Positions 9,567-64,000 of a stretch of 64,000 nucleotides of DNA are shown here, piece after piece (the first letter of the stretch is position 1; the number at the start of each line of letters is the position of its first letter). The stretch is from Specibacter cremeus (GTDB taxonomy: Bacteria; Actinomycetota; Actinomycetes; Actinomycetales; Micrococcaceae): positions 45,660-109,659 of the forward strand of contig NZ_RWKQ01000004.1 in assembly GCF_003946885.1 (NCBI RefSeq), read 5' to 3'. Both the position numbers and the translations under genes were made by a program. The notes under the pieces were generated by a model that was given only the letters and a program-made list of their open reading frames with translations, made no database searches and was not told where the DNA came from.

Positions 9567-10001
9567 ATGCCGCATCCCCGGATGTACGACCACGACGACC
9601 CGTACCTCATGCGGTTGCGCGCCCTCTGCCTGCAGTTCCCCGAGGCGATTGAGAAGGAGGCCTTCGGACGGCCGACGTTCCGTGCCGGCAAGATCTTCGC
9701 CCATTTCGGCCAGGGGCAGTCCAGCCGGCCCCGTGAGGACTCAATCCAGGTTCTGCCGCCCGGGGACGAACGGGAGGCACTGCTGGCAGACCCCCGTTTC
9801 TATGTCCCCTCCTACATCGGCCCGTACGGCTGGGTGGGGCTGGACCTGTCCGTTGGCGAACCGGATTGGCAGGAGATCGCCGAACTGTTGGACAGCTCCT
9901 ACCGGCGGATCGCGCCGGCGCGGCTGATCCGGCGGCTGGACAGCCAGGGGTCGCCGGCCGGGCCGTCCCCGGCCCCGCGCCCGCCCAAAGAACACGGATA
10001 G
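9567..10001 (+). CDS. MmcQ/YjbR family DNA-binding protein
   Basis: A 144-aa protein of the YjbR (DUF419) family, a small alpha/beta fold with a CyaY-like DNA-binding surface. The expected start, LRALCLQFPEAIEKEAFGRPTFR, and the central GPYGWVGLDLS segment are visible. A disordered Pro-rich tail of about 20 residues follows. The biological role is not established for the family. It is transcribed alone from a leaderless promoter. Confidence 0.85.
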   Translation: MPHPRMYDHDDPYLMRLRALCLQFPEAIEKEAFGRPTFRAGKIFAHFGQGQSSRPREDSIQVLPPGDEREALLADPRFYVPSYIGPYGWVGLDLSVGEPDWQEIAELLDSSYRRIAPARLIRRLDSQGSPAGPSPAPRPPKEHG

Positions 10002-49606: not shown

Positions 49607-50505
49607 CCTCAGCCACGATTTCCACCGAAACCGTTCAGGGAACGACGGGCATGATCCGCAGTCTGATCCGGGTCATGCGTTCGATTCTGCGCTCCAAATC
49701 CGCGACGTTGGGCTTCGTCCTAGTCATCCTGCACGTCCTCCTGGCCGTGCTGGCCCCGCTCATCGCGCCGGGCAATCCCGTGAAGAACAATCCGGCGGCC
49801 GTGTTGCAGCTGCCCGGTGGCCCCTTCCCCCTCGGCACAGACACCCTGGGGCGCGACATCCTGTCGCGGACCCTTTACGGGGGCCAATACGCACTGGCCG
49901 TCAGTTTCACCGCTACGGCCCTCGCGGTCCTGCTGGGCACGATCATCGCGGGCCTGGCGGCGTACTACGGCGGCTGGGTCGACCAGCTCATCACGCGCGT
50001 GCTGGACTCGATCCTGGCCGTTCCGGCGATCCTGGCCATGCTCGTGGTGGTCACCGTTTTCGGTTCGGGCCCATGGGTGATCGTGCTGGCCGTCGTGATC
50101 GTGTACACCGGGGGCGTGACCCGCGTCGTGCGAGCGGCCGCCATGGACGTGATGCCCAAGGACTTCATCACCGCCGCGCGGGCCCGCGGCGAGGGCGTCG
50201 TGTACATCCTCAGCCGGGAGGTGTTCCCCAACATCCTGGACGTGGTGCTGGTCGAATTCGCCATGCGTGCCTCCTGGGTCGTCCTCCTGGTCAGCTCGCT
50301 GTCGTTCCTGGGCTTCGGCGCCAACCCGCCGACCCCTGACTGGGGCCTCATGGTTGCCGAGAACCGCAGCCTCATGGCCGTCGTCCCCCTGGCCACCCTT
50401 GCCCCGATCGTTTTCCTGGCCACGCTGATCGTGGGCCTGAACCTTGCCGCCGACGGGCTCGCCAAGAGCCTCGGCATCGACCGCATGAAGGAGATCCTCG
50501 GATGA
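49603..50505 (+). CDS. ABC transporter permease (DppC/OppC-like)
   Basis: A 300-aa partner permease. The OppC-type N-terminus is seen in FPLGTDTLGRDILSRTLYGG, and the EAA loop is MPKDFITAARARGEGVVYIL. C-terminal GFGANPPTPDWGLMVAENRS is diagnostic of the DppC side. Start and stop both overlap neighbours (ATGA), so transporter subunits are made together. Confidence 0.93.
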   Translation: MTSATISTETVQGTTGMIRSLIRVMRSILRSKSATLGFVLVILHVLLAVLAPLIAPGNPVKNNPAAVLQLPGGPFPLGTDTLGRDILSRTLYGGQYALAVSFTATALAVLLGTIIAGLAAYYGGWVDQLITRVLDSILAVPAILAMLVVVTVFGSGPWVIVLAVVIVYTGGVTRVVRAAAMDVMPKDFITAARARGEGVVYILSREVFPNILDVVLVEFAMRASWVVLLVSSLSFLGFGANPPTPDWGLMVAENRSLMAVVPLATLAPIVFLATLIVGLNLAADGLAKSLGIDRMKEILG

Positions 50506-52397
50506 CGGCCACCCAAAGCGAGCACCTCGCCATCGACATCCAGAACCTTGACGTCGCCTACATGGCCGGGACCCGACAAGTGAACGTCCTCCAGGGCGTC
50601 AATCTGGCCCTGCGCCCGGGCGAGGTCCTGGGACTGGTCGGGGAATCCGGTTCCGGCAAGTCCACCCTGGCCGGCATCCTGCTGGCCTCGCTACGGACCT
50701 CCTCATTCATCGCCCGAGGAACTGTCCACGTCGCCGGCGCGGACGTCTTCAAACTCAAGGGGAAGGGGCTGCGCGATTTCCGTGCCTCTCAGGTGGCCTT
50801 GGTCCCGCAGAACGCCGGGGCCGCCCTCACGCCCACCATGCGCATCGCCGACCAGCTGGCCGAGGCGTTCAGGAGCGATGACGCATCCACGGCCACCCGG
50901 GCCGCCCGCCGCTCCCGCGCCATCGAGCTACTTCGCTTGGTGCGTCTGCCGAACCCCGCGGCGGCATTGGACAAGTACCCGCATCAATTCTCCGGCGGCC
51001 AGCAGCAGCGCATCGGCATCGCCATGGCCCTTGCCGCCCGACCGGCCATACTGGTGCTCGACGAACCGACCACGGGACTGGACGTCGTCACCCAGGCGGC
51101 CATTCTGGACACCCTCTCACGACTTCACGCGGAACTGGGCATGGCCATGGTGCTGGTGAGCCACGACCTGGGCGTCATTGACAAGATGTGCACCCACGTG
51201 GCGGTCCTCCGCCAAGGAAAGGTCGTCGAGTCCGGTCCCACCAAGGACGTTCTGGCTCATCCCAGCCACCCCTACACCCGGGGACTGCTGGCCAGCGTGC
51301 CCAGGATCAACGCGCCCGGGATCCCGCCGAGCCTCGATGACGCCGTCATCGACGCGTACGAACGCGGCGAGACGCTGCCTGCGGCGGAAAGCGCCGTGTA
51401 CGAGAGGACGGCCCCAGTGGGCACCCCGCCCGTCCTCACGGTGCGTGGCCTGACCGTAGACTACAACCGGAAGCCCCACGGCGCGCCCACGGTGTTGGAC
51501 GTGGATTTGGATGTCCACGCCGGCGAGATCGTCGCGTTGGTCGGCGAATCCGGCTCCGGCAAATCCACGATCGCCAACGTGATCGCCGGGCTGCAAGGCA
51601 CCAAAGCCGGGGTGCTGACCCTCGATGGCGAAACGGAACTGGCTGCCACCGTCCCGCGACGGGCAAAGGCCGTGCGGCGCGCGATCCAGATCATCTTCCA
51701 AAACGCGGACACGTCGCTGAATCCTCGTCAGACGGTCCGCGATGCGGTGAACCGACCCTTGCGGCTTTTTGGGATCCGCGGATCGTCGGTTGAGGCGGCC
51801 CTGGCCGACGTCGACCTTCCCGGAAGCTTTGCCCAACGCTTGCCCGGCCAATTGTCCGGCGGACAGCGTCAACGCGTCGGCATCGCCCGGGCCGTCGCGG
51901 CGGGCCCCTCCCTGGTCCTCGCCGATGAGATCGTGTCGGCGCTCGATGTCTCGGTGCAGTCCTCCATTTTGCGACTGATGGATCGGTTGGCACGCGAGAA
52001 GGACCTGGGCTTCCTGTTCATCACCCACGACCTGGCGGTGGTTCGCGCCATCGCCGATCGCGTCGTCGTCCTCTACCTGGGGCGCATCGTCGAGGAGGGC
52101 ACGGTCGATGAGATCTTCGGATCCATCTCGCATCCGTACACGCGGCTGCTGCTCGACGCCGTCATCGAACTGGGGGACGACCATGCGTCCGCGCCGGCCC
52201 CGGGACAGGACGAGGTGCCGGACGGGCCACCGGAGCAGGGGTGCCCCTTCGCCAGTCGCTGCCCGCTGGTGATGGACGTGTGCCGCACCGTCCGGCCCCC
52301 GGTGGTACCGGTGAGCGCAACGCACAGCATTCGATGCCACGCGCCGTTGAACAACCTGAGGCTCGACCTGGCGGAGTCCGCCACCGGGCTCGTCTGA
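50502..52397 (+). CDS. ABC transporter, two fused ATP-binding domains (DppD-DppF type)
   Basis: A 631-aa protein that combines both ATPases of an Opp/Dpp importer. Domain 1 has Walker A GESGSGKS (47-54), signature FSGGQQQR and Walker B ILVLDEPTTGLD. Domain 2 has Walker A GESGSGKS (348-355), signature LSGGQRQR and LVLADEIVSALD. The C-terminal CPFASRCPLVMDVC and IRCHAP cysteines form the Fe-S-like oligopeptide ABC tail. Tandem fusion removes the need for two genes. Confidence 0.94.
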   Translation: MTATQSEHLAIDIQNLDVAYMAGTRQVNVLQGVNLALRPGEVLGLVGESGSGKSTLAGILLASLRTSSFIARGTVHVAGADVFKLKGKGLRDFRASQVALVPQNAGAALTPTMRIADQLAEAFRSDDASTATRAARRSRAIELLRLVRLPNPAAALDKYPHQFSGGQQQRIGIAMALAARPAILVLDEPTTGLDVVTQAAILDTLSRLHAELGMAMVLVSHDLGVIDKMCTHVAVLRQGKVVESGPTKDVLAHPSHPYTRGLLASVPRINAPGIPPSLDDAVIDAYERGETLPAAESAVYERTAPVGTPPVLTVRGLTVDYNRKPHGAPTVLDVDLDVHAGEIVALVGESGSGKSTIANVIAGLQGTKAGVLTLDGETELAATVPRRAKAVRRAIQIIFQNADTSLNPRQTVRDAVNRPLRLFGIRGSSVEAALADVDLPGSFAQRLPGQLSGGQRQRVGIARAVAAGPSLVLADEIVSALDVSVQSSILRLMDRLAREKDLGFLFITHDLAVVRAIADRVVVLYLGRIVEEGTVDEIFGSISHPYTRLLLDAVIELGDDHASAPAPGQDEVPDGPPEQGCPFASRCPLVMDVCRTVRPPVVPVSATHSIRCHAPLNNLRLDLAESATGLV

Positions 52398-52432
52398 CCA
52401 CTGAACGTCACCGAAGCGATTGGATTCACCCT

Positions 52433-54460
52433 ATGAAGATCACCGCCGACTTTCCCCGCACCGTAACCGTGATGGAGCACGTCCTGATCCCGATGAGCGA
52501 CGGGACACGGCTGGCGGCCACGATCTGGCTGCCGGATGACGCCACGGACAACCCGGTCCCCGTCCTGCTCGAATACCTGCCCTATCGGCGCGGGGACTGG
52601 ACGGCGCCGCGTGATGCCCAACGGCACCCGTGGTACGCCGGGCACGGATACGCGTCCGTGCGGGTGGATATGCGCGGGGCCGGTGACTCCGAAGGAGTCA
52701 TGCTGGACGAATACCATGTCCAGGAACAAGCGGACGGCATCGATGTCATCGCCTGGCTTGCCGCCCAGCCGTGGTCCACCGGCAAGGTGGGGATGTTCGG
52801 GATCTCCTGGGGCGGGTTCAACAGCCTGCAAATCGCGGCCGAACGGCCGGAGGCGCTCAAGGCGATCGTCACGGTGTGCTCCACCGACGACCGGTATGCC
52901 GATGACGTGCACTACTACGGTGGCGCGCTCCTCGGGATCGACATGGCCGCCTGGGCGGGGACCATGCTTGCCTTCCAGGCCCGCCCGCCGGCGCCGTGGC
53001 GCGTCGGGGACGCCTGGCTCTCCATGTGGAACGAACGGCTCGAGGCGCTCCAACCCTTCAGTGAGATCTGGATGGCCCACCAGGAACGGGACGACTACTG
53101 GCGCCATGGGTCCGTGTGCGAGGACTATTCCCGCATCGATGCCGCGGTACTGGCCGTCGGCGGTTGGGCCGACCCCTACCGGAACGCGGTCCTGCGCCTG
53201 CTGGAGAACCTGGACGCCCCATGCAAGGGACTGATCGGACCATGGTCCCACCAGTACCCTGACATCAACCGGACGCCCGGACCGAACATCGGCTTCCTCC
53301 AGGAAACCCTTCGATGGTGGGATCACTGGCTCAAGGGCGAGGACACCGGCGTGATGGAAGAGCCGGCGCTGCGCGTGTACCAGCAGGACTCGGTCCGACC
53401 CGCCACGCACTACCCGCTCCGTCCCGGGAGATGGGTGGGCCTGAACTCGTGGCCCGCCGTGGAAGTCACACCAACAACCTTCAACCTCCATCGGGACCTG
53501 CGGACCCTGGCTGCCGGCACGGACGGGAACGTCGTCATCGATACCCCGCAGCACACCGGGATCGACGCCGGTCGGTGGTTTCCATTCGGCAACGTCTCCG
53601 ACCTCCCGCCGGACCAGCGCTCCGAAGACGGCCGCTCCGTCGTCTTTGACACCCCGGTTCTCAACGAGGACCTGAACATCCTCGGCTTTCCACGACTGAC
53701 ACTAAAGGTTTGTGCCTCAACCCGGCGCGCCAACATCATGGCCCGGCTGACCGACGTCGCCCCCGACGGATCCTCGACCCTCATCACCCGCGGCGCCATC
53801 AACCTTGCCAAGCGAGACGGGATGGACCGCGCCGATGAGGCAACACCGGGCGCGTGGATCGACGCGGAGATCGAACTGACCTCGATATCCTGGACGGTTC
53901 CCGCCGGGCACCGGCTCCGGGTGGCGCTGTCCACCACATACTGGCCGTGGCTTTGGCCGCATGGTCAGACCGGGGCCGTCATCCTGGACCCCGCGGCCAG
54001 CGAGCTTGTCGTGGGTCATCTCGATCCCGCCGCACTGCACGGACCGCATCCGTTCTTCGACGAGCCCGAACAGGCGCCACCCATGGACGTCCTGGCCGGA
54101 CCGGACCCGGAATCGCGCCCCGAACGGGAGGTCCGCTACGAACCCGACTCCGACACGTGGGTGCTGACCGTGGACCCAAACTACGGGGGGCACCGGGCCT
54201 ACCCGGACGGGCTGGTCTACAGCGAGGCTGCCCAGGAGCGGTACACCATATCGCGCAACGACCCGCTCTCGGCCACGGCCGAATCCCAGTGGAAGATCGG
54301 CTTTGACCGTGGCGACTGGAACGTCCGCATCGACACGGAATCGGTCATCACCTCCACCGCCACCCATTTCCGACTGTTCAACAAAGTCACGACATACTTG
54401 AACGGCAATGTCCACACGGAAAAGACTTTCGACAAGCAGATCGAGCGAACCTCGGTCTAG
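52433..54460 (+). CDS. CocE/NonD family hydrolase
   Basis: A 675-aa alpha/beta hydrolase of the X-Pro dipeptidyl-peptidase/cocaine-esterase family. The nucleophile Ser125 lies in GISWGGFN, the acid Asp in VGGWADPYR (about 244) and the base His in GPWSHQYPD (about 271). After residue 340 a jelly-roll C-terminal domain follows. It starts 36 bp after the ATPase gene in the same operon, so it probably acts on the imported compound; cleavage of Xaa-Pro peptides or of an ester/amide side chain is possible. No signal peptide: it is cytoplasmic. Confidence 0.88.
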   Translation: MKITADFPRTVTVMEHVLIPMSDGTRLAATIWLPDDATDNPVPVLLEYLPYRRGDWTAPRDAQRHPWYAGHGYASVRVDMRGAGDSEGVMLDEYHVQEQADGIDVIAWLAAQPWSTGKVGMFGISWGGFNSLQIAAERPEALKAIVTVCSTDDRYADDVHYYGGALLGIDMAAWAGTMLAFQARPPAPWRVGDAWLSMWNERLEALQPFSEIWMAHQERDDYWRHGSVCEDYSRIDAAVLAVGGWADPYRNAVLRLLENLDAPCKGLIGPWSHQYPDINRTPGPNIGFLQETLRWWDHWLKGEDTGVMEEPALRVYQQDSVRPATHYPLRPGRWVGLNSWPAVEVTPTTFNLHRDLRTLAAGTDGNVVIDTPQHTGIDAGRWFPFGNVSDLPPDQRSEDGRSVVFDTPVLNEDLNILGFPRLTLKVCASTRRANIMARLTDVAPDGSSTLITRGAINLAKRDGMDRADEATPGAWIDAEIELTSISWTVPAGHRLRVALSTTYWPWLWPHGQTGAVILDPAASELVVGHLDPAALHGPHPFFDEPEQAPPMDVLAGPDPESRPEREVRYEPDSDTWVLTVDPNYGGHRAYPDGLVYSEAAQERYTISRNDPLSATAESQWKIGFDRGDWNVRIDTESVITSTATHFRLFNKVTTYLNGNVHTEKTFDKQIERTSV

Positions 54461-54482
54461 ACAATGGATGGGAGACCATGTC

Positions 54483-55133
54483 ATGACGGAAGTACGGCAG
54501 GCCGGACGACCGAAAGCGAAATCGGAAGACGAACGCCAACGCCACCCCACGGAGGTACGTCGCCGTTTGGTCATCGAATCGGCCCGCGACCTCATCGCGG
54601 ACAAGGGCCTTTTCAACGTCCAAATACGGGATATCTCGCGGGCCTGCGGCGTTTCACCCGGCACCATCACCTACCACTTCCGCAGCCTGGAAGAGGTCCT
54701 CTGGGAGGTCGTGAAGGCGGAAACTGCCGAGTTCTACGTGCCGTTGCAGGAAGCAGCCAGGAGCGAAGGCGACGCCGCCGCGCAGCTCCTCACCTTCCTG
54801 CGTGGCATGTTCAAGTCCGACCCGGACACGCGCCGGCACTGGCTCATCTGGCTCGACTTCTGGTCCGCCGCAGCACGAGAGGACTCGTACGGAGAATGGA
54901 TGAACGATCACTACGCCAACTGGTGGGCAGCACTCCGGGACATCACCGCACGCGGCGTCGAGGACGGTCGATTCACCTGCGCCGATCCCGACACCTTCGC
55001 GATAGACACCGCTGCCGTGGTCGACGGCCTGGCGATCCAGTGCTATTCCAAACGGGCACGCCTCACGGTGGCCGAGGCACGGGAACACCTCGTCCGATTC
55101 GTCAGTGACAGGCTGGCCATCGACTCGAGGTAG
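54483..55133 (+). CDS. TetR family transcriptional regulator
   Basis: A 216-aa regulator. After a basic tail the helix-turn-helix reads RDLIADKGLFNVQIRDISRA with CGVSPGTITYHFRSLEEVLW (about 37-76). The C-terminal ligand domain resembles BetI-type TetR_C_6. The ATG at 54483 is preferred; an in-frame ATG 15 bp earlier has no better ribosome binding site. It closes the peptide-transporter operon and probably represses it in response to the imported compound. Confidence 0.9.
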   Translation: MTEVRQAGRPKAKSEDERQRHPTEVRRRLVIESARDLIADKGLFNVQIRDISRACGVSPGTITYHFRSLEEVLWEVVKAETAEFYVPLQEAARSEGDAAAQLLTFLRGMFKSDPDTRRHWLIWLDFWSAAAREDSYGEWMNDHYANWWAALRDITARGVEDGRFTCADPDTFAIDTAAVVDGLAIQCYSKRARLTVAEAREHLVRFVSDRLAIDSR

Positions 55134-55294
55134 TGCCTATGCCTTGATCCACCGATCCGGTTCCGGACTCGTCGGAAGTTCAGGATTTGCCGGGTTTGTG
55201 ATTTTGGGCAGGATCCACCGGCCGGCCTCGCCGCCGTTGGTGTTCCACGCTTTGTGTTCCTGGGTTGCGCCGGGATCGGCTGGGCGGACGGGTC

Positions 55295-55557
55295 CTACGC
55301 TGCCTGCGGCGGCTCGTGGGTCGCGGCGAAAAGCTGCTCCCAGGCGGTTTGCCAGGGCCAGGGCTCGGGAAGGTGGAGCCTGATTTTCCGGGCGCTGGAG
55401 GCGATGCGGACCGGGACGTGGATGAGTTTGCGGCGAATCGTCCCGGTCCTGGCCCTGGCGAAGGTTCCTTTGGCGAGGATCCCGCGGTGCGGGTGAGGTT
55501 GTATGCCATGACGGCGGCGACCCGCCGAAGTGTCACAGATGTGTTGAGGTAGAACTG
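55295..55557 (-). mobile_element. IS1380-family transposase remnant (C-terminus)
   Basis: Read on the minus strand with one frameshift near 55490, the sequence gives LNTSVTLRRVAAVMAYNLTR, then GILAKGTFARARTGTIRRKL, then ARKIRLHLPEPWPWQTAWEQ and a stop at 55295. This is the usual end of IS1380 transposases. The upstream two thirds are missing. The 160 bp to its left (55134-55294) may be the element's 3' flank; no terminal repeat could be confirmed. It ends next to the beheaded GAF gene. Confidence 0.72.
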
Positions 55558-55728
55558 TCACCGAAGTCCTTCGACATAACACCGGCGATTAAAAACGGCG
55601 TCACGATCGGGTCCATTAACTTCCTTGACGTCGAGGGAAGTTACGATGAGCATTCCGCCACGGCGGCGATGGAAATTGCGGCCCACTCCACTGACCTCCT
55701 TGAGGAATTGCTCACCACCTACGCCTGA
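55558..55728 (+). pseudogene. GAF-domain protein, C-terminal fragment
   Basis: The plus strand reads SFDITPAIKNGVTIGSINFL, DVEGSYDEHSATAAMEIAAH and STDLLEELLTTYA, then a stop at 55728. This is the last 55 residues of a stand-alone GAF protein, similar in layout to the GAF part of the EamA fusion (ISIDNRFLGCLNLMDSPGSY). No start codon or N-terminal half exists; the break coincides with the IS1380 remnant. It probably once led the amidohydrolase operon. Confidence 0.65.
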
Positions 55729-55804
55729 CCCCCCTGGGGCGGGAAATGCGCCACCATACATCCAATTCCGGGCACTGCTGTCCGGGGAAGAAGGGGACCT
55801 CACC

Positions 55805-57040
55805 ATGTCCAACGTCGCCACCCAGTTGTTGACCGTCACGAATGCGCTGATCTTTGACGGGTCATCGCCGGATCTCACCGCAGGATCCATCGTGTTTCGC
55901 GACGGCGTCATCGAGGCGGTCGGGGACGTGGCCCCTGTGGGCGAGGTCGTCGATGCCGGCGGGAAAGTCGTCGTGCCGGGGCTCATCGACGCCCACTTCC
56001 ACGCCTACGCCGTCGGCCTCGGCGGTTTTGAGGTCGAAAGGGGCCCGTTGAGCTATGCGGCACTGGTCGGCGCCCAACGGTTGGGGTCCGCCCTGAAGCG
56101 CGGGTTCACCACGGTGCGCGACGTTGCCGGCGGCGACATCGGCCTCGCGAAGGCGGTGCGCGGCGGCGTGTTCAAGTCCCCGCGCTACCTCTTCACCGGC
56201 CCGGCGATGAGCCAGACCGGCGGCCACGGCGACCCCCGCGCCGAGGACCTGGACCTGTGCTTCAGCCACGGCCACATGTGTTCCGTTGTCGACGGCGTGG
56301 ACGACCTCCGCAAGGCCGTCCGCGACAGGTTCCGGACCGGCAGCCACGCCATCAAGATCATGACGTCCGGTGGCGTCGTGTCGCTGACCGACCCCATCCG
56401 GGTGCCGCAATATTCGGCGGCGGAAATCCAGGCCGTCGTGGAGGAGGCGGGTCGCCGCAACAGCTACGTGGCCGCCCATGCGTACTCGCCGGAGGCCATC
56501 AAGCACTCGGTCGAAAACGGTGTGCGGTCAATCGAGCACGGAAACCTCATGGACCAGGAAACCGCCGAGTTGATGGCCCGGCACGGCAGCTACCTGGTGC
56601 CCACGCTGGCCGCCTACGATGCCATGAACCGGCGGGGTGAGGCGCTGGGGCTGCACCCCATTTCGCAGGTGAAGAACGCCGAGGTGCTTGAGTCCGGCAA
56701 GACGGCGATCGAACTGGCGCTGGCGGCCGGGGTCAAGGTTGGCTTCGGCTCGGACCTGATGGGCGACCTGGAAAACGACCAGTTGGTGGGCGTGCGCCTG
56801 CAAACCGAGGTGGCCGGCGTTTTTGAGACGCTGCGGTCCATGACGTCCGTGAACGCGGAGATCTTGCAGGACACCCGCATCGGCCGGATCGGCGCCGGGG
56901 CGCATGGCGACGTCGTGATCCTGGACGGCAACCCGTTCGAGGACCCTGCGGCACTGTGGGACGAGAGCCGGCCGCGCGTCGTCATCCAGGCCGGCCGCGT
57001 CGTCACGGCGCCAGTGGAGCCCGTTTTCAATACCCAGTAG
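55805..57040 (+). CDS. Metal-dependent amidohydrolase (imidazolonepropionase/Xaa-Pro dipeptidase-like); last codons IS-derived
   Basis: A 411-aa TIM-barrel amidohydrolase. Metal ligands are His64/His66 (DAHFHAY), the bridging Lys184 (HAIKIMTSGG), His225 (VAAHAY), His245 (SIEHGN) and Asp317 (GSDLMG), all present. Related enzymes hydrolyse N-acyl or Xaa-Pro dipeptides. A GAAGAAGGGG ribosome binding site precedes the ATG. The last dozen codons (after GRVV) are, on the opposite strand, ISAs1 transposase sequence (GIENGLHWRRD). The natural C-terminus has been replaced, and activity may still be kept since the barrel is intact. Confidence 0.87.
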   Translation: MSNVATQLLTVTNALIFDGSSPDLTAGSIVFRDGVIEAVGDVAPVGEVVDAGGKVVVPGLIDAHFHAYAVGLGGFEVERGPLSYAALVGAQRLGSALKRGFTTVRDVAGGDIGLAKAVRGGVFKSPRYLFTGPAMSQTGGHGDPRAEDLDLCFSHGHMCSVVDGVDDLRKAVRDRFRTGSHAIKIMTSGGVVSLTDPIRVPQYSAAEIQAVVEEAGRRNSYVAAHAYSPEAIKHSVENGVRSIEHGNLMDQETAELMARHGSYLVPTLAAYDAMNRRGEALGLHPISQVKNAEVLESGKTAIELALAAGVKVGFGSDLMGDLENDQLVGVRLQTEVAGVFETLRSMTSVNAEILQDTRIGRIGAGAHGDVVILDGNPFEDPAALWDESRPRVVIQAGRVVTAPVEPVFNTQ

Positions 57041-57815: not shown

Positions 57816-58469
57816 TCAGATCCAGGGGGGTGCTTCCCGGGGTTGTCGCCGGGCGCGGCCGGTGGCCCAGGCGACGATCTCGGGCAGGGTTCCGTTGGGC
57901 GGGTCCGGGTTCTGGCCACGGCCGTGCCAGGTGCCGGTGATGTCGGTGAGGAGGCGGTCGAGGACGTCGGCGGGGATCTGGTCGAACGCGGCGCCGTTGT
58001 CGAGGTCCACGGCGTGCATCCAGACTTCCCGGGTGCGCAGCCACACGGTTTCGGATGCCGGCACGGAACGGCCCTGGGCCGTTCTGACGAGGTGGTTCCA
58101 CGCCTCGGGCGGGGTGTCTCGCCATTCTACGTTGAGGTGGATGGCGGCATGCTCGTACAGGTGGCGCAGGGCGATAGGGCTCAGGGTCGCCCCGTACTCG
58201 ATTTCGTGCCGGCGGGCCTGCGGCGATTCATACATGGGGTTTTCGATGCCCGTGTTGGCCCACTGAACAAGCCGCGCAAGGGCCCGGGCGTTGTAGCCGA
58301 CGTGGGCGACGACGTGGCGCCGGGACCAGCCGGGCAGCAGCGAGGGGGCGTCGAGGTCGGCGTCACTGAGTTCGTTGAGTTTGCGGCCGAAGAACGCGGT
58401 CCCGCGGCGCGCCTGCAGGAGGTCTTCCAGCAGGCGCGGGTCGGTCGTGAGGTCGTGGCGGGCGACCAT
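57816..58469 (-). CDS. Maleylpyruvate isomerase (mycothiol-dependent type)
   Basis: A 217-aa DinB-fold metalloenzyme that isomerises 3-maleylpyruvate to fumarylpyruvate, using mycothiol in actinobacteria. Metal ligands are His52 or His56 (RRHVVAHVG) plus Glu148 and His152 (REVWMHAVDLDNG), the Glu-x3-His spacing of the family. The start overlaps the hydrolase stop (TGATG). It ends next to the group II intron remnant; at 217 aa it is slightly shorter than the usual roughly 240, so a small C-terminal loss cannot be excluded. Confidence 0.88.
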   Translation of the reverse strand: MVARHDLTTDPRLLEDLLQARRGTAFFGRKLNELSDADLDAPSLLPGWSRRHVVAHVGYNARALARLVQWANTGIENPMYESPQARRHEIEYGATLSPIALRHLYEHAAIHLNVEWRDTPPEAWNHLVRTAQGRSVPASETVWLRTREVWMHAVDLDNGAAFDQIPADVLDRLLTDITGTWHGRGQNPDPPNGTLPEIVAWATGRARRQPREAPPWI

Positions 58470-59293
58470 CAGGCTTCCTTGACCACGCGGTTGTTCAGTT
58501 GGCCCAGGCCCTCGATGGTGGTGGTCAGGACCTGGCCCTCCTGCAGGTAGACCTTGGGGTCGCGGGCGTGGCCGACGCCGCCGGGGGTGCCGGTGGCGAT
58601 GACGTCGCCGGGGTTCAGGGTGATGATGGTGGAGATGTAGGAGACCAGGAATTCCGGGGTGAAGACGAGGTCGCCCGTGGGGGTTTGCTGCATGGTTTCC
58701 CCGTCGACGGCGGAGGTCATGAGGGGGCCGGCGGCGAATTCGTCGGGGGTGACCAGGGCGGGGCCGAAGGGGGTGGACTTTTCCCAAGTCTTGCCCTGGA
58801 GCCACTGGATGGTGCGGAACTGGTAGTCGCGCATGGAGACGTCGTTCAGGACGGCGTAGCCGGCAATGTGGCAGGCGGCGTCGGCCACGGCGATGCGGCG
58901 GCCGGGCTTGCCGATGATCACCGCGAGTTCGGCCTCCCAGTCCACGGCGTCCGATTCCTGGGGCAGGGCCAGGTCGTCGTGGGGGCCGATGAGGGATTCG
59001 GCGTACTTGGCGAACAGGGTCGGGTAGGCGGGGATCTCCCGGCCCATCTCCTGGATGTGGTTGCGGTAGTTGTGGCCCACGCAGATGATCTTTCCCGGTG
59101 CGGGGACGACGGCGGCCAGCTCGGCGCCGTCGTACGCGTGCGTGGCGCCGGTGGCGGCGGCGGCGACGTCCTTCCAGCCAGGGTTTTTCAGGAGGTCCCC
59201 GACGGTGGCGTAGCCGTCGATCTCGGTGAGGGTGGCCCCGTCCTGGCGGACCGCGCGGGTGCCGGCGGGTGTGCGGAGGGTCAGGAGTTTCAT
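58469..59293 (-). CDS. Fumarylpyruvate hydrolase (FAH family)
   Basis: A 274-aa FAH enzyme predicted to split fumarylpyruvate into fumarate and pyruvate, the last gentisate step. Metal ligands Glu120 and Glu122 are in DWEAELAVIIGKP, with the acidic GYAVLNDVSMRDYQ next and the catalytic-loop GHNYRNHIQEMG (73-84). GDVIATGTPGGVGHARDP closes the fold. The assignment to fumarylpyruvate rests on its place between gentisate dioxygenase and the isomerase. It differs clearly from the solitary FAH gene at 31.8 kb. Confidence 0.9.
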   Translation of the reverse strand: MKLLTLRTPAGTRAVRQDGATLTEIDGYATVGDLLKNPGWKDVAAAATGATHAYDGAELAAVVPAPGKIICVGHNYRNHIQEMGREIPAYPTLFAKYAESLIGPHDDLALPQESDAVDWEAELAVIIGKPGRRIAVADAACHIAGYAVLNDVSMRDYQFRTIQWLQGKTWEKSTPFGPALVTPDEFAAGPLMTSAVDGETMQQTPTGDLVFTPEFLVSYISTIITLNPGDVIATGTPGGVGHARDPKVYLQEGQVLTTTIEGLGQLNNRVVKEA

Positions 59294-60390
59294 GCTTGGT
59301 TGCGTCCTTCGATGTAGGTGCGGTTCAGGTTGAGCCGTTCGATGATGGGGTGGTCCCCGAACTGGAAGAGATCGAAACAAGTCTCGGCCTGCAGGGACCA
59401 GGACGCCCAGGACGGGACGACCACCAGGTCGCCCTTTTCCACGGTGTTGGTGACGCCGTTGATGACGATCGCGCCGCGGCCCTCGAAGACCTGGTACACG
59501 CTGGAGCCGACCTCCCGGACGGTGGGGGTCCGCGTCCCGGCGCGCAGCCGGTGGAACTGGGCGCGGATGGTGGGCATCACGTCCCCGCCGGTGGTCGGGT
59601 TGACGAAGCGCACCGCCGCGTGCCCCGGGGACACGGTGGCCGGAAAGCCCTCGTCCTCCAACGCCAGCTGTTCGGCCAGGGCCCGGTCGGTGTGCACCCA
59701 CCGGTAGGCGCCGATCGGGGAGGAGACGGTGTTGCCCAGCCCGGAGAGCGGGCGCAGCCCGGGATTGGCCCACAGCCGCTCGGAGCGGGAGACGTCAGGG
59801 GTGGACTCGTCCGTGACCCGCTCGGTGCCGAACTCGAAGAACGCGGAGTCCGTGTAATGCACAAACGGGATGTCCAGGCCGTCGATCCAGGCCATCGGCG
59901 CATCGGTGTCGTTGTGGTGGCCGTGGAAGTTCCAGCCCGGGGTCAGCAGGAAGTCCCCGCGGGACATCCGCACCGGGTCCCCGTTGACCACCGTCCACAC
60001 CCCCTCGCCCTCCACCACGAACCGGAACGCGTTCTGCGAATGCCTGTGCTCCGGCGCCGTCTCGTGCCCGCCCAGGTACTGGATCGCCGCCCACAGGGTG
60101 GGCGTCGCGTACGGGCGCCCGCCCAGGCCCGGATTGGCCAGGGCAATGGCCCGGCGTTCCCCGCCGCGGCCCACCGGGACAAGCTCCCCGGACCGCTCCG
60201 CCAACGGTAGCAGCGACGTCCAGCGCCACACATGCGCCACGGCTTTGGGCGACGGCTGCATCGGCATCAGGTCACCGATCTCCGTCCACAACGGGATCAG
60301 GTTCTCCCGGCCGAAGTCCCTGTACAGCTGGTCCAACCCGGCCTGTTCCTCGGCGGTGGGGGGCGCCGCCACCATCTGGTCCTCGGTCAT
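59290..60390 (-). CDS. Gentisate 1,2-dioxygenase
   Basis: A 366-aa bicupin Fe(II) ring-cleaving dioxygenase that turns gentisate and O2 into 3-maleylpyruvate. Iron ligands are His115 and His117 in PEHRHSQNAFRF and His156 or His158 in GWNFHGHHN. The second cupin (about 250-340) is degenerate, as usual. The close relatives salicylate and 1-hydroxy-2-naphthoate dioxygenases share the fold; the two downstream genes favour gentisate. It overlaps both neighbours by 4 bp. Confidence 0.9.
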   Translation of the reverse strand: MTEDQMVAAPPTAEEQAGLDQLYRDFGRENLIPLWTEIGDLMPMQPSPKAVAHVWRWTSLLPLAERSGELVPVGRGGERRAIALANPGLGGRPYATPTLWAAIQYLGGHETAPEHRHSQNAFRFVVEGEGVWTVVNGDPVRMSRGDFLLTPGWNFHGHHNDTDAPMAWIDGLDIPFVHYTDSAFFEFGTERVTDESTPDVSRSERLWANPGLRPLSGLGNTVSSPIGAYRWVHTDRALAEQLALEDEGFPATVSPGHAAVRFVNPTTGGDVMPTIRAQFHRLRAGTRTPTVREVGSSVYQVFEGRGAIVINGVTNTVEKGDLVVVPSWASWSLQAETCFDLFQFGDHPIIERLNLNRTYIEGRNQA

Positions 60391-61262
60391 CGTCCGCCGT
60401 CCTCGCCGGCGGCGAGGAGGACGCCGCCCAGCTCCGCCGCGAAGGTGTCGGGGACGGTCTGATAGGGCACATGCGCCCCGGTGAAGGAGAGGAAGCGTGC
60501 GCCGAGATGCTCCGCCAACTGGCGGAGGGCTTCGGTGTAGGTGGCCAGCAGGGCGGTGTGAAGCTCGGTGCCGCCGGTGGTGCCGATGCCGATGACCAGC
60601 GGCGTGGTGCGCCGCGCGACGAGCTCGGCGGGCGGGTCGTAGCGGTCCACCACGCCCAGTTCGCGCCGGATCCAGTTCTCACCGTTGGCTTGCACGCGCT
60701 GGCGAAGGTCCGCCGCGTCGATGTCCGCGTCGTCGGGTCCGGTCAGCCAACCGTGGAAATCGTCCATCGCGTGGCCGTAGCCCCCGGCCTTGACCGCCGC
60801 GTCCATGCGATCCCTCAGCTGTGCCAGGAATTCGTCGCGGTTGGGGAGGGTGCCGATCTTCGGAGGCTCATGGGCGACGACGGTGCGCAGGACCCCGGGG
60901 TGGCGGAGGGCCAGGTTGATGGCGATGGTGGCGCCACTGCTGTTGCCGAACACATGGGCCGGTGCGAGGTCGAGTGCGGTGATGAGCGCCGCCGCATCGT
61001 CGGCCTGTTCGTCGACGGTGGTCGCTTCCCAGCCGGCCGGGGGGAGGCTGCGGGAGTTGCCGCGACGGTCGTAGGTGAGGACGGTGAAGTCGCGGGAAAG
61101 GTGCTCCGCGGCCATCGCATACATCCCGGCGTCGCCGCTGGCTCCGGGGATGAGCAGCAGTGCCGGGCCCGCGCCACGGAGCTCGTAGTAGAGGTTGGCC
61201 CGGTTGGCCGGGACGACGCCATGGCGGGTAGTGGGCATGCCCATGGTTTCAGGCTTCGACAT
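60387..61262 (-). CDS. Alpha/beta hydrolase of the gentisate operon
   Basis: A 291-aa alpha/beta hydrolase. The nucleophile Ser108 lies in GNSSGA (a GxSxG variant), the oxyanion region in LIPGASGD (37-44) and the base His in FTGAHVPYQT (about 268). LTYDRRGNSRS follows the usual fold. The ATG at 61262 is chosen for AGGAG 8 nt upstream and overlaps the MBL gene by 14 bp. It probably frees an aromatic acid from an ester or thioester before ring cleavage; the substrate is unknown. Confidence 0.82.
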   Translation of the reverse strand: MSKPETMGMPTTRHGVVPANRANLYYELRGAGPALLLIPGASGDAGMYAMAAEHLSRDFTVLTYDRRGNSRSLPPAGWEATTVDEQADDAAALITALDLAPAHVFGNSSGATIAINLALRHPGVLRTVVAHEPPKIGTLPNRDEFLAQLRDRMDAAVKAGGYGHAMDDFHGWLTGPDDADIDAADLRQRVQANGENWIRRELGVVDRYDPPAELVARRTTPLVIGIGTTGGTELHTALLATYTEALRQLAEHLGARFLSFTGAHVPYQTVPDTFAAELGGVLLAAGEDGGR

Positions 61263-62127
61263 AACTTTTCTCCTGGTCGTGGATCGGATCGAGGTTGATT
61301 TCGTGCAGGTCCCTGCCGATGATGATGCGGCCGCGGAACGTGCGTGATGCCGCGTCAAGCCACATTTGGTCGGTGACGATGTCGCTGCCGGGAACCAGAT
61401 GGGACAACATGAGGGTGCCCACGCCGGCTTCGGTGGCGACCTGGCCGGCCTGTTCGGCGGTGGTGTGGCAGGACATCAGATGCTGGCGGAGGGTTTCGGC
61501 TCCGGCGCCTTCGAGCTGGGCGCCGACCGCGTCCGGGTAGATGGCCTCGTGGACAAGCACATCGGCGCCGCGGGCAAGGTCGATCAGGGCCGACGAATAC
61601 CGTGTGTCACCGGAGATGACCACGGACCGGCCGCCGGCGTCGAAGCGGTAGCCGAGCGCGACGTCGAACGGTGGATGGTCAACCAGCTGGGTGGTCACGC
61701 GCAGCCCATCCCGTTCCCGAACGACGCCGGCGGCGTTCAGGTCCGTTGTGCGCAACAGGCCGGGGAACGGGACACGCCCGGTGGTTGCGGTGCGTGCTGC
61801 GAGTTCGGGTGCGGTCATACTCAAGAATTCGTCAATCATGTGGGCTGTCCCGGACGGACCGTAGACGTCGATGGGGAGGTCGCGACCGTCCGTCCAGGCG
61901 ATCAGGGGCAGCGCACCCACGTCCATCATGTGGTCGGCATGATGGTGGGTGATGTAGACGCCGGTGAGTTGGTCGCGCGGGATGCCGGCGAGGGCGAGTT
62001 GCCGGGCCACGCCGTTGCCGCAGTCGATGACATGGACCTGGTCGTCGTGGATGATGGCCTGGGCCGGGGCGCTGCGGTTGACGGACGGCCGGGGTCCGCC
62101 GGCGGTGCCGAGGAGAACCAGTTTCAT
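61249..62127 (-). CDS. MBL-fold hydrolase, AtsA-arylsulfatase-like
   Basis: A 292-aa metallo-beta-lactamase-fold enzyme with metal motif HHHADH (61-66), VISGDTRYS and LSHLVPG. The opening MKLVLLGTAGGPRPSVNRSA with the following AQAIIHDDQVHVIDCGNGV is the pattern recalled for the AtsA branch of arylsulfatases (RNase Z-like), though lactonases and RNase Z share the fold. Its company of an arylsulfotransferase-like gene makes sulfate-ester hydrolysis an attractive but unproven role. It overlaps the gene upstream by ATGA. Confidence 0.8.
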   Translation of the reverse strand: MKLVLLGTAGGPRPSVNRSAPAQAIIHDDQVHVIDCGNGVARQLALAGIPRDQLTGVYITHHHADHMMDVGALPLIAWTDGRDLPIDVYGPSGTAHMIDEFLSMTAPELAARTATTGRVPFPGLLRTTDLNAAGVVRERDGLRVTTQLVDHPPFDVALGYRFDAGGRSVVISGDTRYSSALIDLARGADVLVHEAIYPDAVGAQLEGAGAETLRQHLMSCHTTAEQAGQVATEAGVGTLMLSHLVPGSDIVTDQMWLDAASRTFRGRIIIGRDLHEINLDPIHDQEKSYVEA

Positions 62128-63269
62128 GGTTGGATCAATTCCTTTTCAGTGGGGGACCCGGCCAGCGGACCTAGTTGCTCCCGGCCATAGCGGAAGGCGC
62201 GGAACATCCGGTTGGAGCGGACGCCGTCCGGGTCCGTCGGCGAGGTGACAGCGTAGGGGTTGGTGTACTCCCACACGACCTCCCCGTCGGTGGTGATTTC
62301 AAAGATCCGTCCGGTGAGCCCCTCGCAGATGAGCGTGTTGTCGTTGGGAAGGCGTTGGACGGAGGATTGCAACGCACTGAAGAAATCCCACCGGACCGGG
62401 TCCGTGTAGGCCCAGACTTCCTCCCCGGTGGCCAGGTCGAACTCGACGGCCCGCGAGTAGGGTGGCCAGCCGTCGGCACGGTTGAATCCGTTGTCGTAGA
62501 CCAGCACGGTCGAGGCGCCGGTCAGCCAGGGCGAGTGTTGGCCGGCGAGTTCACCGGCACCGATGCGCTGGCGGATCGTGCCGGTGGTCCGGTCGATGCG
62601 CAGCACGGTCGAAATCTGGCGCATGCTGACGAGGATGTCGCCGCCGGGCAGCTCGGCGAGTCCGTTGCCGTGGGTCCATTCGATCCGGTCCATCGGGCCC
62701 GGCCCGATCCGGTCCACGTCGACGTCGAGATGTTCCCAGCTGCGCCATTCCCAGACGATCCCGCCGGTGGTGGTCATCTCCACCACGGTGTCTGCGAACA
62801 TGGGTGCGCCGTCGGCACCGATTCCGCCCCGGACCCGCGCCGCCACGTCGGCGGGGACCTGGCCGAGCCCAAGGAGGAGGACATTTCCGTTGCGGAGCAG
62901 GATCGCGTCGTGGTGGTGGCTGGGGTGGCGCACCTCCCAGAGCACGTCGCCGTCCCAGCCGACTTCGGCGACGACGCCGCCCTTGAACGGGGCCCGCCCG
63001 AGGAATGGCTGGTCGTCGACGATGCGGCCGCTGCAGAGGAGGGTTTGGCGGTCCGTGATGACGGAACCCAGGCCGGGAGGCCATGGCAATTCCCACCGGT
63101 GCACCTCGTTGCCTTGCAGGTCGATGAGGCGGGTGGTTGTTCCACCGAAGCTGGGTGCGATCAGGGTGTACCCGTCGTACGCTTTTGCGGGGTTGATGGC
63201 CCTCAGCCCGGTGGGTCGCCGGAGCGCGGTGGTTTGTTCGACGAGGTCCGATGACATGGTTGTTGTCAT
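62124..63269 (-). CDS. Arylsulfotransferase-like beta-propeller protein
   Basis: A 381-aa protein of the ASST superfamily. Repeating Trp/Gly-rich blades are visible: GDVLWEVRHPSHHHDAILLR, GGIVWEWRSWEHLDVDVD, WTHGNGLAELPGGDILVSMR, GEEVWAYTDPVRWD and GEVVWEYTNPYAV. Family enzymes move sulfate between phenols using an active-site His; His residues in HHHDA and in WTHGN are candidates. No signal peptide is present, whereas AssT enzymes are periplasmic. It lies between the MarR gene and the MBL gene, overlapping both. Confidence 0.8.
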   Translation of the reverse strand: MTTTMSSDLVEQTTALRRPTGLRAINPAKAYDGYTLIAPSFGGTTTRLIDLQGNEVHRWELPWPPGLGSVITDRQTLLCSGRIVDDQPFLGRAPFKGGVVAEVGWDGDVLWEVRHPSHHHDAILLRNGNVLLLGLGQVPADVAARVRGGIGADGAPMFADTVVEMTTTGGIVWEWRSWEHLDVDVDRIGPGPMDRIEWTHGNGLAELPGGDILVSMRQISTVLRIDRTTGTIRQRIGAGELAGQHSPWLTGASTVLVYDNGFNRADGWPPYSRAVEFDLATGEEVWAYTDPVRWDFFSALQSSVQRLPNDNTLICEGLTGRIFEITTDGEVVWEYTNPYAVTSPTDPDGVRSNRMFRAFRYGREQLGPLAGSPTEKELIQP

Positions 63270-63772
63270 TGTTCGGTCATCCCTTCCAGGCGGTGAATGA
63301 GCCGGCTCATGCCGTCCAGGAATTCTGTTCGCTCGGCTTCCCCGAATTCGGCGAAGACCCGGCTGCGCAGGCCGTGTACCAGTGGACGAAGCTCCTCCAG
63401 GGACGCCTTGCCGTCCGGGGTGAGCAGCAGGATCTTGCGGCGGGAGTCGTCGGGGTCGCGCAGGGCGCGGATGTGTCCGCGGCGCGAGAGGCGGTTGACG
63501 ACGTCGGCGGTGCTCGACTTGTCCATGCTCAGGTTCTGCGCCAGGGTCTTCTGGTCCTGCCCGGGCAGGGTGTCCAGGGCCGAGAGCATGCCGAACTGGG
63601 TGGAGGTGACATCGGCGGAGACGTAGGTCACCCAGGCGGCCGTGTACATCTGAGTCAGGCGGCGCAGCCGGGGCATGAAGCCCCATGTGGGGTCCCCGGC
63701 GTCGCTGCCGCTGTGCGGCGACAGCAGGTTCAGGACGTGCTGGCTTTCGTCGGGCTTCTCTTGCAGGCTCAC
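63266..63772 (-). CDS. MarR family transcriptional regulator of the gentisate operon
   Basis: A 168-aa winged-helix regulator. The recognition helix is LSMDKSSTADVVNRLSRRG, and the wing has DPDDSRRKILLLTPDG with the conserved Asp/Arg pair. It overlaps the ABC ATPase stop and the arylsulfotransferase-like start, so it is co-translated inside the operon. It probably responds to the aromatic substrate. Its promoter lies outside the window. Confidence 0.9.
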   Translation of the reverse strand: MSLQEKPDESQHVLNLLSPHSGSDAGDPTWGFMPRLRRLTQMYTAAWVTYVSADVTSTQFGMLSALDTLPGQDQKTLAQNLSMDKSSTADVVNRLSRRGHIRALRDPDDSRRKILLLTPDGKASLEELRPLVHGLRSRVFAEFGEAERTEFLDGMSRLIHRLEGMTEQ

Positions 63773-64000
63773 GGATTCTCCCCCTCAATGGTCGGCTGGG
63801 TCTGGGCCCGGATCTCTCGCAGAACACGGGCGCGGATGTCCGTGAATTGCGGCAGGGCCTTCGTCTCGATCTGATCACGGTCGGGGCCGAGACCGGTAGT
63901 TTCGATGCGCCGCACGCGTGCCGGGCTGCCGCCCAGGACGACGACCTGGTCGCCGAGGTACACGGCTTCGTCGACGTCGTGGGTGACCAGGACGACGGAG
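63769..64000 (-). CDS. ABC transporter ATP-binding protein, SsuB/TauB-like (partial, N-terminus beyond the window)
   Basis: Only the last 76 codons are present. SVVLVTHDVDEAVYLGDQVV is the switch His (THD) and D-loop-side helix of nitrate/sulfonate/taurine ATPases, where DEA and LxDxVxVL are conserved. The tail is short and charged. It opens the visible part of the operon and suggests import of an anionic or aromatic compound; its permease and binding protein should lie just to the right. Confidence 0.85.
   Translation of the reverse strand, partial: SVVLVTHDVDEAVYLGDQVVVLGGSPARVRRIETTGLGPDRDQIETKALPQFTDIRARVLREIRAQTQPTIEGENP

Follow-up and report, generated by a model that had tools for sequence, protein, structure and literature searches.

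A gentisate operon of Specibacter cremeus with its own importer and an arylsulfotransferase-like front end

The mycothiol-type gentisate cluster of Corynebacterium glutamicum (NCgl2918-2920) encodes a dioxygenase, a fumarylpyruvate hydrolase and a maleylpyruvate isomerase; it is fed by hydroxylation of 3-hydroxybenzoate and is not known to have an ATP-binding cassette (ABC) importer or a front end of arylsulfate sulfotransferase (ASST), metallo-beta-lactamase-fold (MBL) protein and alpha/beta hydrolase. Enzymes of the same three families form the end of the operon described here, which occupies positions 57816-64000 of a 64,000-nucleotide window of the 4.3-Mb Specibacter cremeus genome (the window being the whole stretch of DNA analysed, contig C34:45660-109659) and continues past its right edge. 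A related block is carried by plasmid pASPHE301 of Pseudarthrobacter phenanthrenivorans, where the same three genes occur in the same order (67-84% protein identity; 83%, 84% and 67% individually), and identities to a plasmid of Arthrobacter sp. StoSoilB13 are 62-85%. The pASPHE301 block adjoins a flavin monooxygenase gene as well as genes for AMP-binding and CoA ligase proteins; ASST, MBL and ABC genes are absent from the stretch shown. The best-matching family for that monooxygenase is salicylyl-CoA 5-hydroxylase, below the family's cut-off, and because a related back-end block adjoins such a gene, the front end of the pathway looks exchangeable. In S. cremeus its place is taken by a set of genes that looks hydrolytic and includes no oxygenase.

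Two further described systems bear on the genes that precede this block. The ASSTs of Escherichia coli and Streptomyces (Cpz4), which are independent of 3′-phosphoadenosine-5′-phosphosulfate, share their fold, their sulfuryl-binding residues and their nucleophilic histidine with one protein of the operon, and the MBL-fold arylsulfatase AtsA, of sulfatase family S4, is the best fold and sequence match of another, with the HxHxDH motif in common. It is poorly understood which substrates bacterial aryl sulfotransferases use in nature and what their physiological role is, and Cpz4 serves in antibiotic sulfation (PMC13426309), whereas the ASST-like gene considered here lies in a catabolic operon. 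What MBL-type arylsulfatases do in vivo is likewise difficult to predict (PMC5066984).

Taken as a whole, the operon may serve to import a conjugated form of gentisate, most likely a sulfate ester, that the ASST-like, MBL and alpha/beta hydrolase proteins would deconjugate ahead of ring cleavage; we favour this reading tentatively, at somewhat less than an even chance. An importer of the TauABC/SsuABC type would take up conjugated 2,5-dihydroxybenzoate, most likely as the sulfate ester and possibly also as a carboxyl or phenol ester. A cytosolic ASST-like enzyme would accept the sulfuryl group on His245 and hand it to an acceptor, the AtsA-like MBL enzyme would hydrolyse the sulfate in addition to this enzyme or in its place, and the alpha/beta hydrolase would take off the ester part, the order of these front-end steps being presumptive. 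Free gentisate would then pass through the gentisate dioxygenase (GDO) to maleylpyruvate, through the mycothiol-dependent isomerase to fumarylpyruvate, and through the hydrolase to fumarate and pyruvate. Sulfate is the best single guess for the conjugate because of the active site of the ASST-like protein, the nearest structure to the MBL protein and the type of importer.

Eight genes of the operon are located on the minus strand and are transcribed from right to left, according to the open reading frame coordinates in window 57816-64000. All seven junctions between them overlap, by 4, 4, 4, 14, 4, 4 and 1 bp from the ATPase gene to the isomerase gene, the last in the form TGATG. An earlier, sequence-only reading of the window had described these genes as an eight-gene operon with overlapping junctions throughout. 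The measured overlaps bear this out, and its gene order and family calls agree with those made here from Pfam and NCBIfam profiles and from comparison with the sequences of solved structures. All eight genes are present, but the unit is larger, the ATPase gene being completed off-window. Extension to the right, as that reading had proposed, revealed two permease genes and a binding-protein gene that continue the operon upstream of the ATPase gene, and the junctions beyond the window edge are gaps of at most 14 bp or a 4-bp overlap. The operon is accordingly larger than described, with 11 genes rather than eight predicted to stand behind a single promoter-like site.

The last three of these genes are predicted to encode a complete and conventional mycothiol-type route from gentisate to fumarate and pyruvate, as the sequence-only reading had proposed, and each enzyme falls in the expected family. 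Two of them have their top or a strong match in 6j57 and 2nsf, which we take to be the C. glutamicum gentisate enzymes: the fumarylpyruvate hydrolase (PF01557, E-value 6e-64) has 6j57 as its top solved sequence (298 bits), and the isomerase scores 110 bits with TIGR03083, against a cut-off of 50, and 199 bits with 2nsf. The C-terminal domain of the isomerase is about 30 residues shorter than in the Leucobacter (see below) and pASPHE301 proteins, and its WAxGR segment is retained. With 2phd, the salicylate 1,2-dioxygenase (SDO) of Pseudaminobacter, the dioxygenase gives a gapless alignment of 348 residues (600 bits); the iron ligands H115, H117 and H156 are all conserved, as are the pocket residues R79, Q104, R123, H158, W168 and D170. 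At the position of SDO Gly106 the operon protein has Ala102, and because of this alanine a gentisate enzyme is the natural reading; to judge from the title under which it is cited in PMC4585797, the work of Ferraroni (2013) takes the G106A variant as a model for the conventional GDO. The protein scores 261 bits with TIGR02272, under the 442-bit cut-off of that model, which we take to cover another branch of the family. It is the single GDO copy in the genome.

At the other end of the operon, the four transporter genes match the SsuA, NtrB/SsuC and NtrCD families and are predicted to encode a complete NitT/TauT-type ABC importer of the SsuABC/TauABC/NrtABC group, so that the SsuB-like ATPase recognised by the sequence-only reading belongs to a full system. 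Sulfonates and sulfate esters are common substrates of this group. Every family match falls under its curated cut-off, however, and the substrate of the importer is therefore not fixed by these matches.

The ASST-like protein matches Pfam PF05935 (87 bits), and its AlphaFold2 model (pLDDT 89) is closest to Streptomyces Cpz4 (Z 34.0) and E. coli ASST (3elq; Z 31.1). The sequence-only reading had named homology to non-sulfatase families as a possible refutation; by fold the protein does not belong to a non-sulfotransferase family, the next structures being other propellers at Z 22.7. Five of the six active-site residues listed for the E. coli enzyme (residues and roles from PMC13426309) are kept, H120, H200, N202, R217 and H245 corresponding to H252, H356, N358, R374 and H436. 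H120, N202, R217 and H245 are invariant in all 38 aligned sequences, and H200 is found in 30 of them. Structurally, the modelled protein thus appears to be an arylsulfate sulfotransferase with its catalytic core intact. It differs from E. coli ASST and Cpz4 in being only about 23% identical to them, in its length of 381 residues and in having no visible signal peptide, whereas E. coli ASST is periplasmic. Inspection by eye revealed no signal peptide at the N-terminus of either the ASST-like or the MBL protein, and for this reason the ASST-like enzyme is likely to act in the cytosol, after import.

The MBL protein, likewise modelled (pLDDT 93), is closest to the arylsulfatase of Pseudoalteromonas atlantica (8gyg; E-value 7e-28, TM 0.85, 25% identity), and its metal-binding motif residues H61, H63, D65 and H66 (HxHxDH) are invariant in 25 sequences. 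It falls short of the RNase Z family model, scoring 116 bits with TIGR02651, for which the cut-off is 293, and a better RNase Z candidate is encoded separately on contig C78 (233 bits, likewise below the cut-off). Close relatives of the MBL protein occur in about ten Micrococcaceae genomes, at 42-47% identity, and there a polar-amino-acid-type importer precedes them; a second MBL gene carried by S. cremeus (L131:6229-7065, contig C44; 44% identical) likewise comes after polar-amino-acid-type binding-protein and ATPase genes and is followed by a transaminase gene. Because of these arrangements the MBL group seems tied to importers generally rather than to sulfate. Other relatives follow a NitT/TauT-type importer together with aldehyde dehydrogenase and short-chain dehydrogenase/reductase genes (Arthrobacter sulfonylureivorans) or adjoin a SulP anion transporter gene (Leisingera); those that are 30-36% alike across the phylum carry little neighbourhood information in the short flanks examined. 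The alpha/beta hydrolase has its nearest solved sequences among enzymes of the zearalenone lactonase type, which fits a predicted esterase or lactonase, and no operon genes lie near its close relatives in four genomes.

The distribution of the operon was followed through the ASST-like protein. Scanning some 85,000 species genomes gave 129 confirmed loci, and the best 80 of these were retained; because the scan relies on short conserved peptides, distant copies may escape it. Among these best 80, the complete operon occurs in one other genome, that of Leucobacter sp. Ag1 (NZ_LAYO01000111), where all 11 genes stand in the same order and an additional IclR gene separates the alpha/beta hydrolase gene from the dioxygenase gene. 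The proteins there are 49% (binding protein), 57% and 64% (permeases), 71% (ATPase), 58% (MarR regulator), 64% (ASST), 70% (MBL), 63% (alpha/beta hydrolase), 78% (dioxygenase), 54% (fumarylpyruvate hydrolase) and 58% (isomerase) identical to those of S. cremeus. Since Leucobacter sp. Ag1 keeps the gene order, the operon is a real functional unit rather than a chance arrangement. Conservation elsewhere, on which the sequence-only reading had made its case depend, is therefore found, but for the full set only once.

Partial versions occur in distant phyla. Within the same phylum, genome G856 has two permease genes, an ATPase gene, a binding-protein gene, a GDO gene and an MBL gene in succession (GDO 45% and MBL 44% identical), and in a deltaproteobacterial bin (DP_36, L018) an ASST-like gene, an NMT1-type binding-protein gene and a GDO-like gene are consecutive; that ASST-like gene (L018:9992-11061) is split in two frames, and its two neighbours are open. 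These partial sets count in favour of the proposed pathway, as do the MBL neighbourhoods of Arthrobacter sulfonylureivorans and Leisingera. Otherwise the best 80 loci have no neighbour in common and lie mostly in unrelated or clade-specific surroundings. In the family of S. cremeus itself, the ASST-like gene was found in just two of 295 genomes, the present one counted, which suggests horizontal gain. The other copy (G236, L134:2394-9644) has a nucleoside hydrolase gene, the genes of a NitT/TauT-type importer and an amidohydrolase gene as neighbours, a setting that hints at a different imported compound. Composition leaves the origin of the operon unsettled, because its G+C content (68.4%) is near the window average (68.8%) and exceeds the values of both flanks somewhat (65.4% and 65.5%).

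Several observations weigh against a sulfate ester as the substrate. No sulfate-assimilation genes were recognised in or next to the operon, and no sulfur genes beside the MBL relatives of the ten or so Micrococcaceae genomes. The binding protein matches TauA weakly (38 bits), and Gln301 of the ASST-like protein replaces Thr501 of E. coli ASST. An ASST, moreover, moves the sulfuryl group only and would require an acceptor as well. The lead of the arylsulfatase over other MBL folds is narrow: YhfI and RNase Z follow close behind 8gyg, leaving RNase Z almost as near as AtsA. Membership in S4 calls for at least 30% identity to AtsA (PMC5066984), and the roughly 25% to the P. atlantica arylsulfatase 8gyg, obtained in a structural alignment, falls under that rule; the protein is for this reason called AtsA-like rather than assigned to S4. 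The AtsA-like label of the sequence-only reading thus holds as far as the nearest solved relative goes, the protein being a candidate sulfatase. Much the same applies to its proposal that the front end strips a sulfate or ester group: the ASST core is intact, an arylsulfatase is the nearest relative of the MBL protein and an alpha/beta hydrolase is present, but any role of sulfate and the nature of the imported compound are presumptive. The narrower claim that a cytosolic ASST and an AtsA-like metallo-hydrolase together desulfate an imported gentisate aryl sulfate in a catabolic pathway is less likely than not.

A gentisate ester or amide could also be degraded without sulfate, the alpha/beta hydrolase and the MBL protein releasing gentisate and the ASST-like propeller carrying out some other reaction or acting on a side substrate. 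This would suit the kinship of the alpha/beta hydrolase with lactone and ester hydrolases, the importer operons in which close MBL relatives occur without recognised sulfur genes, the importer, GDO and MBL genes of G856 with no ASST gene nearby, and the varied neighbourhoods of the ASST-like family, amidohydrolase and nucleoside hydrolase genes among them. We nevertheless think it unlikely, given that the ASST active site is retained down to the sulfuryl-accepting histidine, that the ASST gene lies inside the operon in both genomes and that it is accompanied by a sulfonate/taurine-type importer.

Both this route and the sulfate ester reading have gentisate released as such, and the search for a ring hydroxylase bears on that point. 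None was recognised in the operon, in the 10 kb to its right or in the Leucobacter sp. Ag1 operon; the sequence-only reading, which had seen none in the window, is confirmed in this, and its suggestion that one might lie off-window found no support in those 10 kb. Another part of the genome could still encode a hydroxylase that makes gentisate from an imported precursor such as conjugated salicylate or 3-hydroxybenzoate, the operon GDO being the only copy available, and the genome does contain one Rieske ring-hydroxylase alpha subunit and many flavin monooxygenases. A search of the genome for 3-hydroxybenzoate 6-hydroxylase, flavin monooxygenases and Rieske oxygenases gave no clear candidate, however: the flavin monooxygenases scanned belong to other subfamilies, and the best 3-hydroxybenzoate 6-hydroxylase match reaches 88 bits against a cut-off of 459, a weak test, as the control genomes also fell below it, including that of C. 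glutamicum, which presumably has this enzyme. With the Leucobacter operon likewise devoid of a hydroxylase, this explanation is improbable. A hydroxylase would be unneeded if a 5-substituted salicylate (sulfo-, chloro- or nitro-) were cleaved directly to a lactone that the MBL protein or the alpha/beta hydrolase opened to maleylpyruvate. The dioxygenase is indeed closest in sequence to SDO, the alpha/beta hydrolase resembles lactonases, 5-sulfosalicylate would suit a sulfonate-type importer, and a lactone hydrolase that yields maleylpyruvate is known from the 5-nitrosalicylate pathway (PMC10306065). The alanine at the SDO Gly106 position, by contrast, marks a conventional gentisate enzyme, the 5-nitrosalicylate dioxygenase retaining glycine, and the ASST-like gene would be left without a role; we hold this, too, to be quite improbable.

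Upstream of the binding-protein gene, which is the first of the operon (Table 1), is a promoter-like sequence, TTGACG-17-CATAAT, that agrees with the consensus at 10 of 12 positions. Pattern searches also found two copies of GGACGTACACGNC upstream of this gene (L003:9862-9874 and 9984-9996), the nearer of them following the promoter-like site and preceding the start codon; 0.17 matches would be expected in all 20 kb with one mismatch permitted, a figure that serves as a guide only, the motif having been derived from these very sequences. Its palindromic core, CGTRYACG, is shared with the Leucobacter operon, whose upstream region has two copies (L006:5874 and 5962). The core by itself is not rare in these sequences, and it is the upstream placement in both genomes that stands out. 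We infer that these putative palindromes are the binding site of the MarR protein of the operon, which would probably be controlled by its own regulator.

Table 1. Genes of the operon. Positions refer to the window unless marked L003 (contig C34:103000-122999; window position = L003 position + 57340).
Feature	Position	Strand	Remarks
Binding protein, beyond window edge, first operon gene	L003:8854-9834		TauA/SsuA-like
PermA permease, beyond window edge	L003:8068-8844		Sequence past window edge
PermB permease, beyond window edge	L003:7298-8071		Sequence past window edge
SsuB-like NitT/TauT ABC ATPase, 3′ part in window	63769..64000	-	Complete gene L003:6429-7283
MarR-family regulator, 168 aa, GTG start	63266..63772	-	4 bp overlap with ATPase gene
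ASST-like beta-propeller, 381 aa	62124..63269	-	Pfam, structure model, active-site residues
MBL-fold hydrolase, 292 aa, HxHxDH	61249..62127	-	4 bp overlap with ASST gene
Alpha/beta hydrolase, 291 aa	60387..61262	-	14 bp overlap with MBL gene
Gentisate 1,2-dioxygenase, salicylate-dioxygenase-like group	59290..60390	-	2phd alignment, pocket residues
FAH-family fumarylpyruvate hydrolase, 274 aa	58469..59293	-	PF01557, 6j57
Mycothiol-dependent maleylpyruvate isomerase, 217 aa	57816..58469	-	TIGR03083, 2nsf

Convergent with the operon, on the opposite strand at window 50502-57040, are genes for a double-ATPase ABC protein (dipeptide-like), a large hydrolase (CocE-like), a TetR regulator and an amidohydrolase, the types of the first two having been judged by eye; these could possibly form a separate peptide or ester uptake unit. 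To the right (L003:12335-19556) lies what appears by eye to be a copper-handling group, with a CsoR-like regulator, a P-type ATPase, a permease and a multicopper oxidase.

The combination of enzymes at the front of this operon is rare and appears not to have been described before; its back end is ordinary. No paper joining gentisate with arylsulfotransferases or aryl sulfates was found in the literature collection searched, and the sequence-only reading had stated that it knew of no described pathway with this gene set. If the desulfation reading is true, the ASST and MBL arylsulfatase families would gain a physiological role. The operon places proteins of both types with a single importer and a ring-cleavage pathway that is known, so that the question can be put to the test: gentisate is the expected product, and candidate substrates are therefore few. 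It also illustrates how a gentisate block may be supplied by exchangeable front ends.

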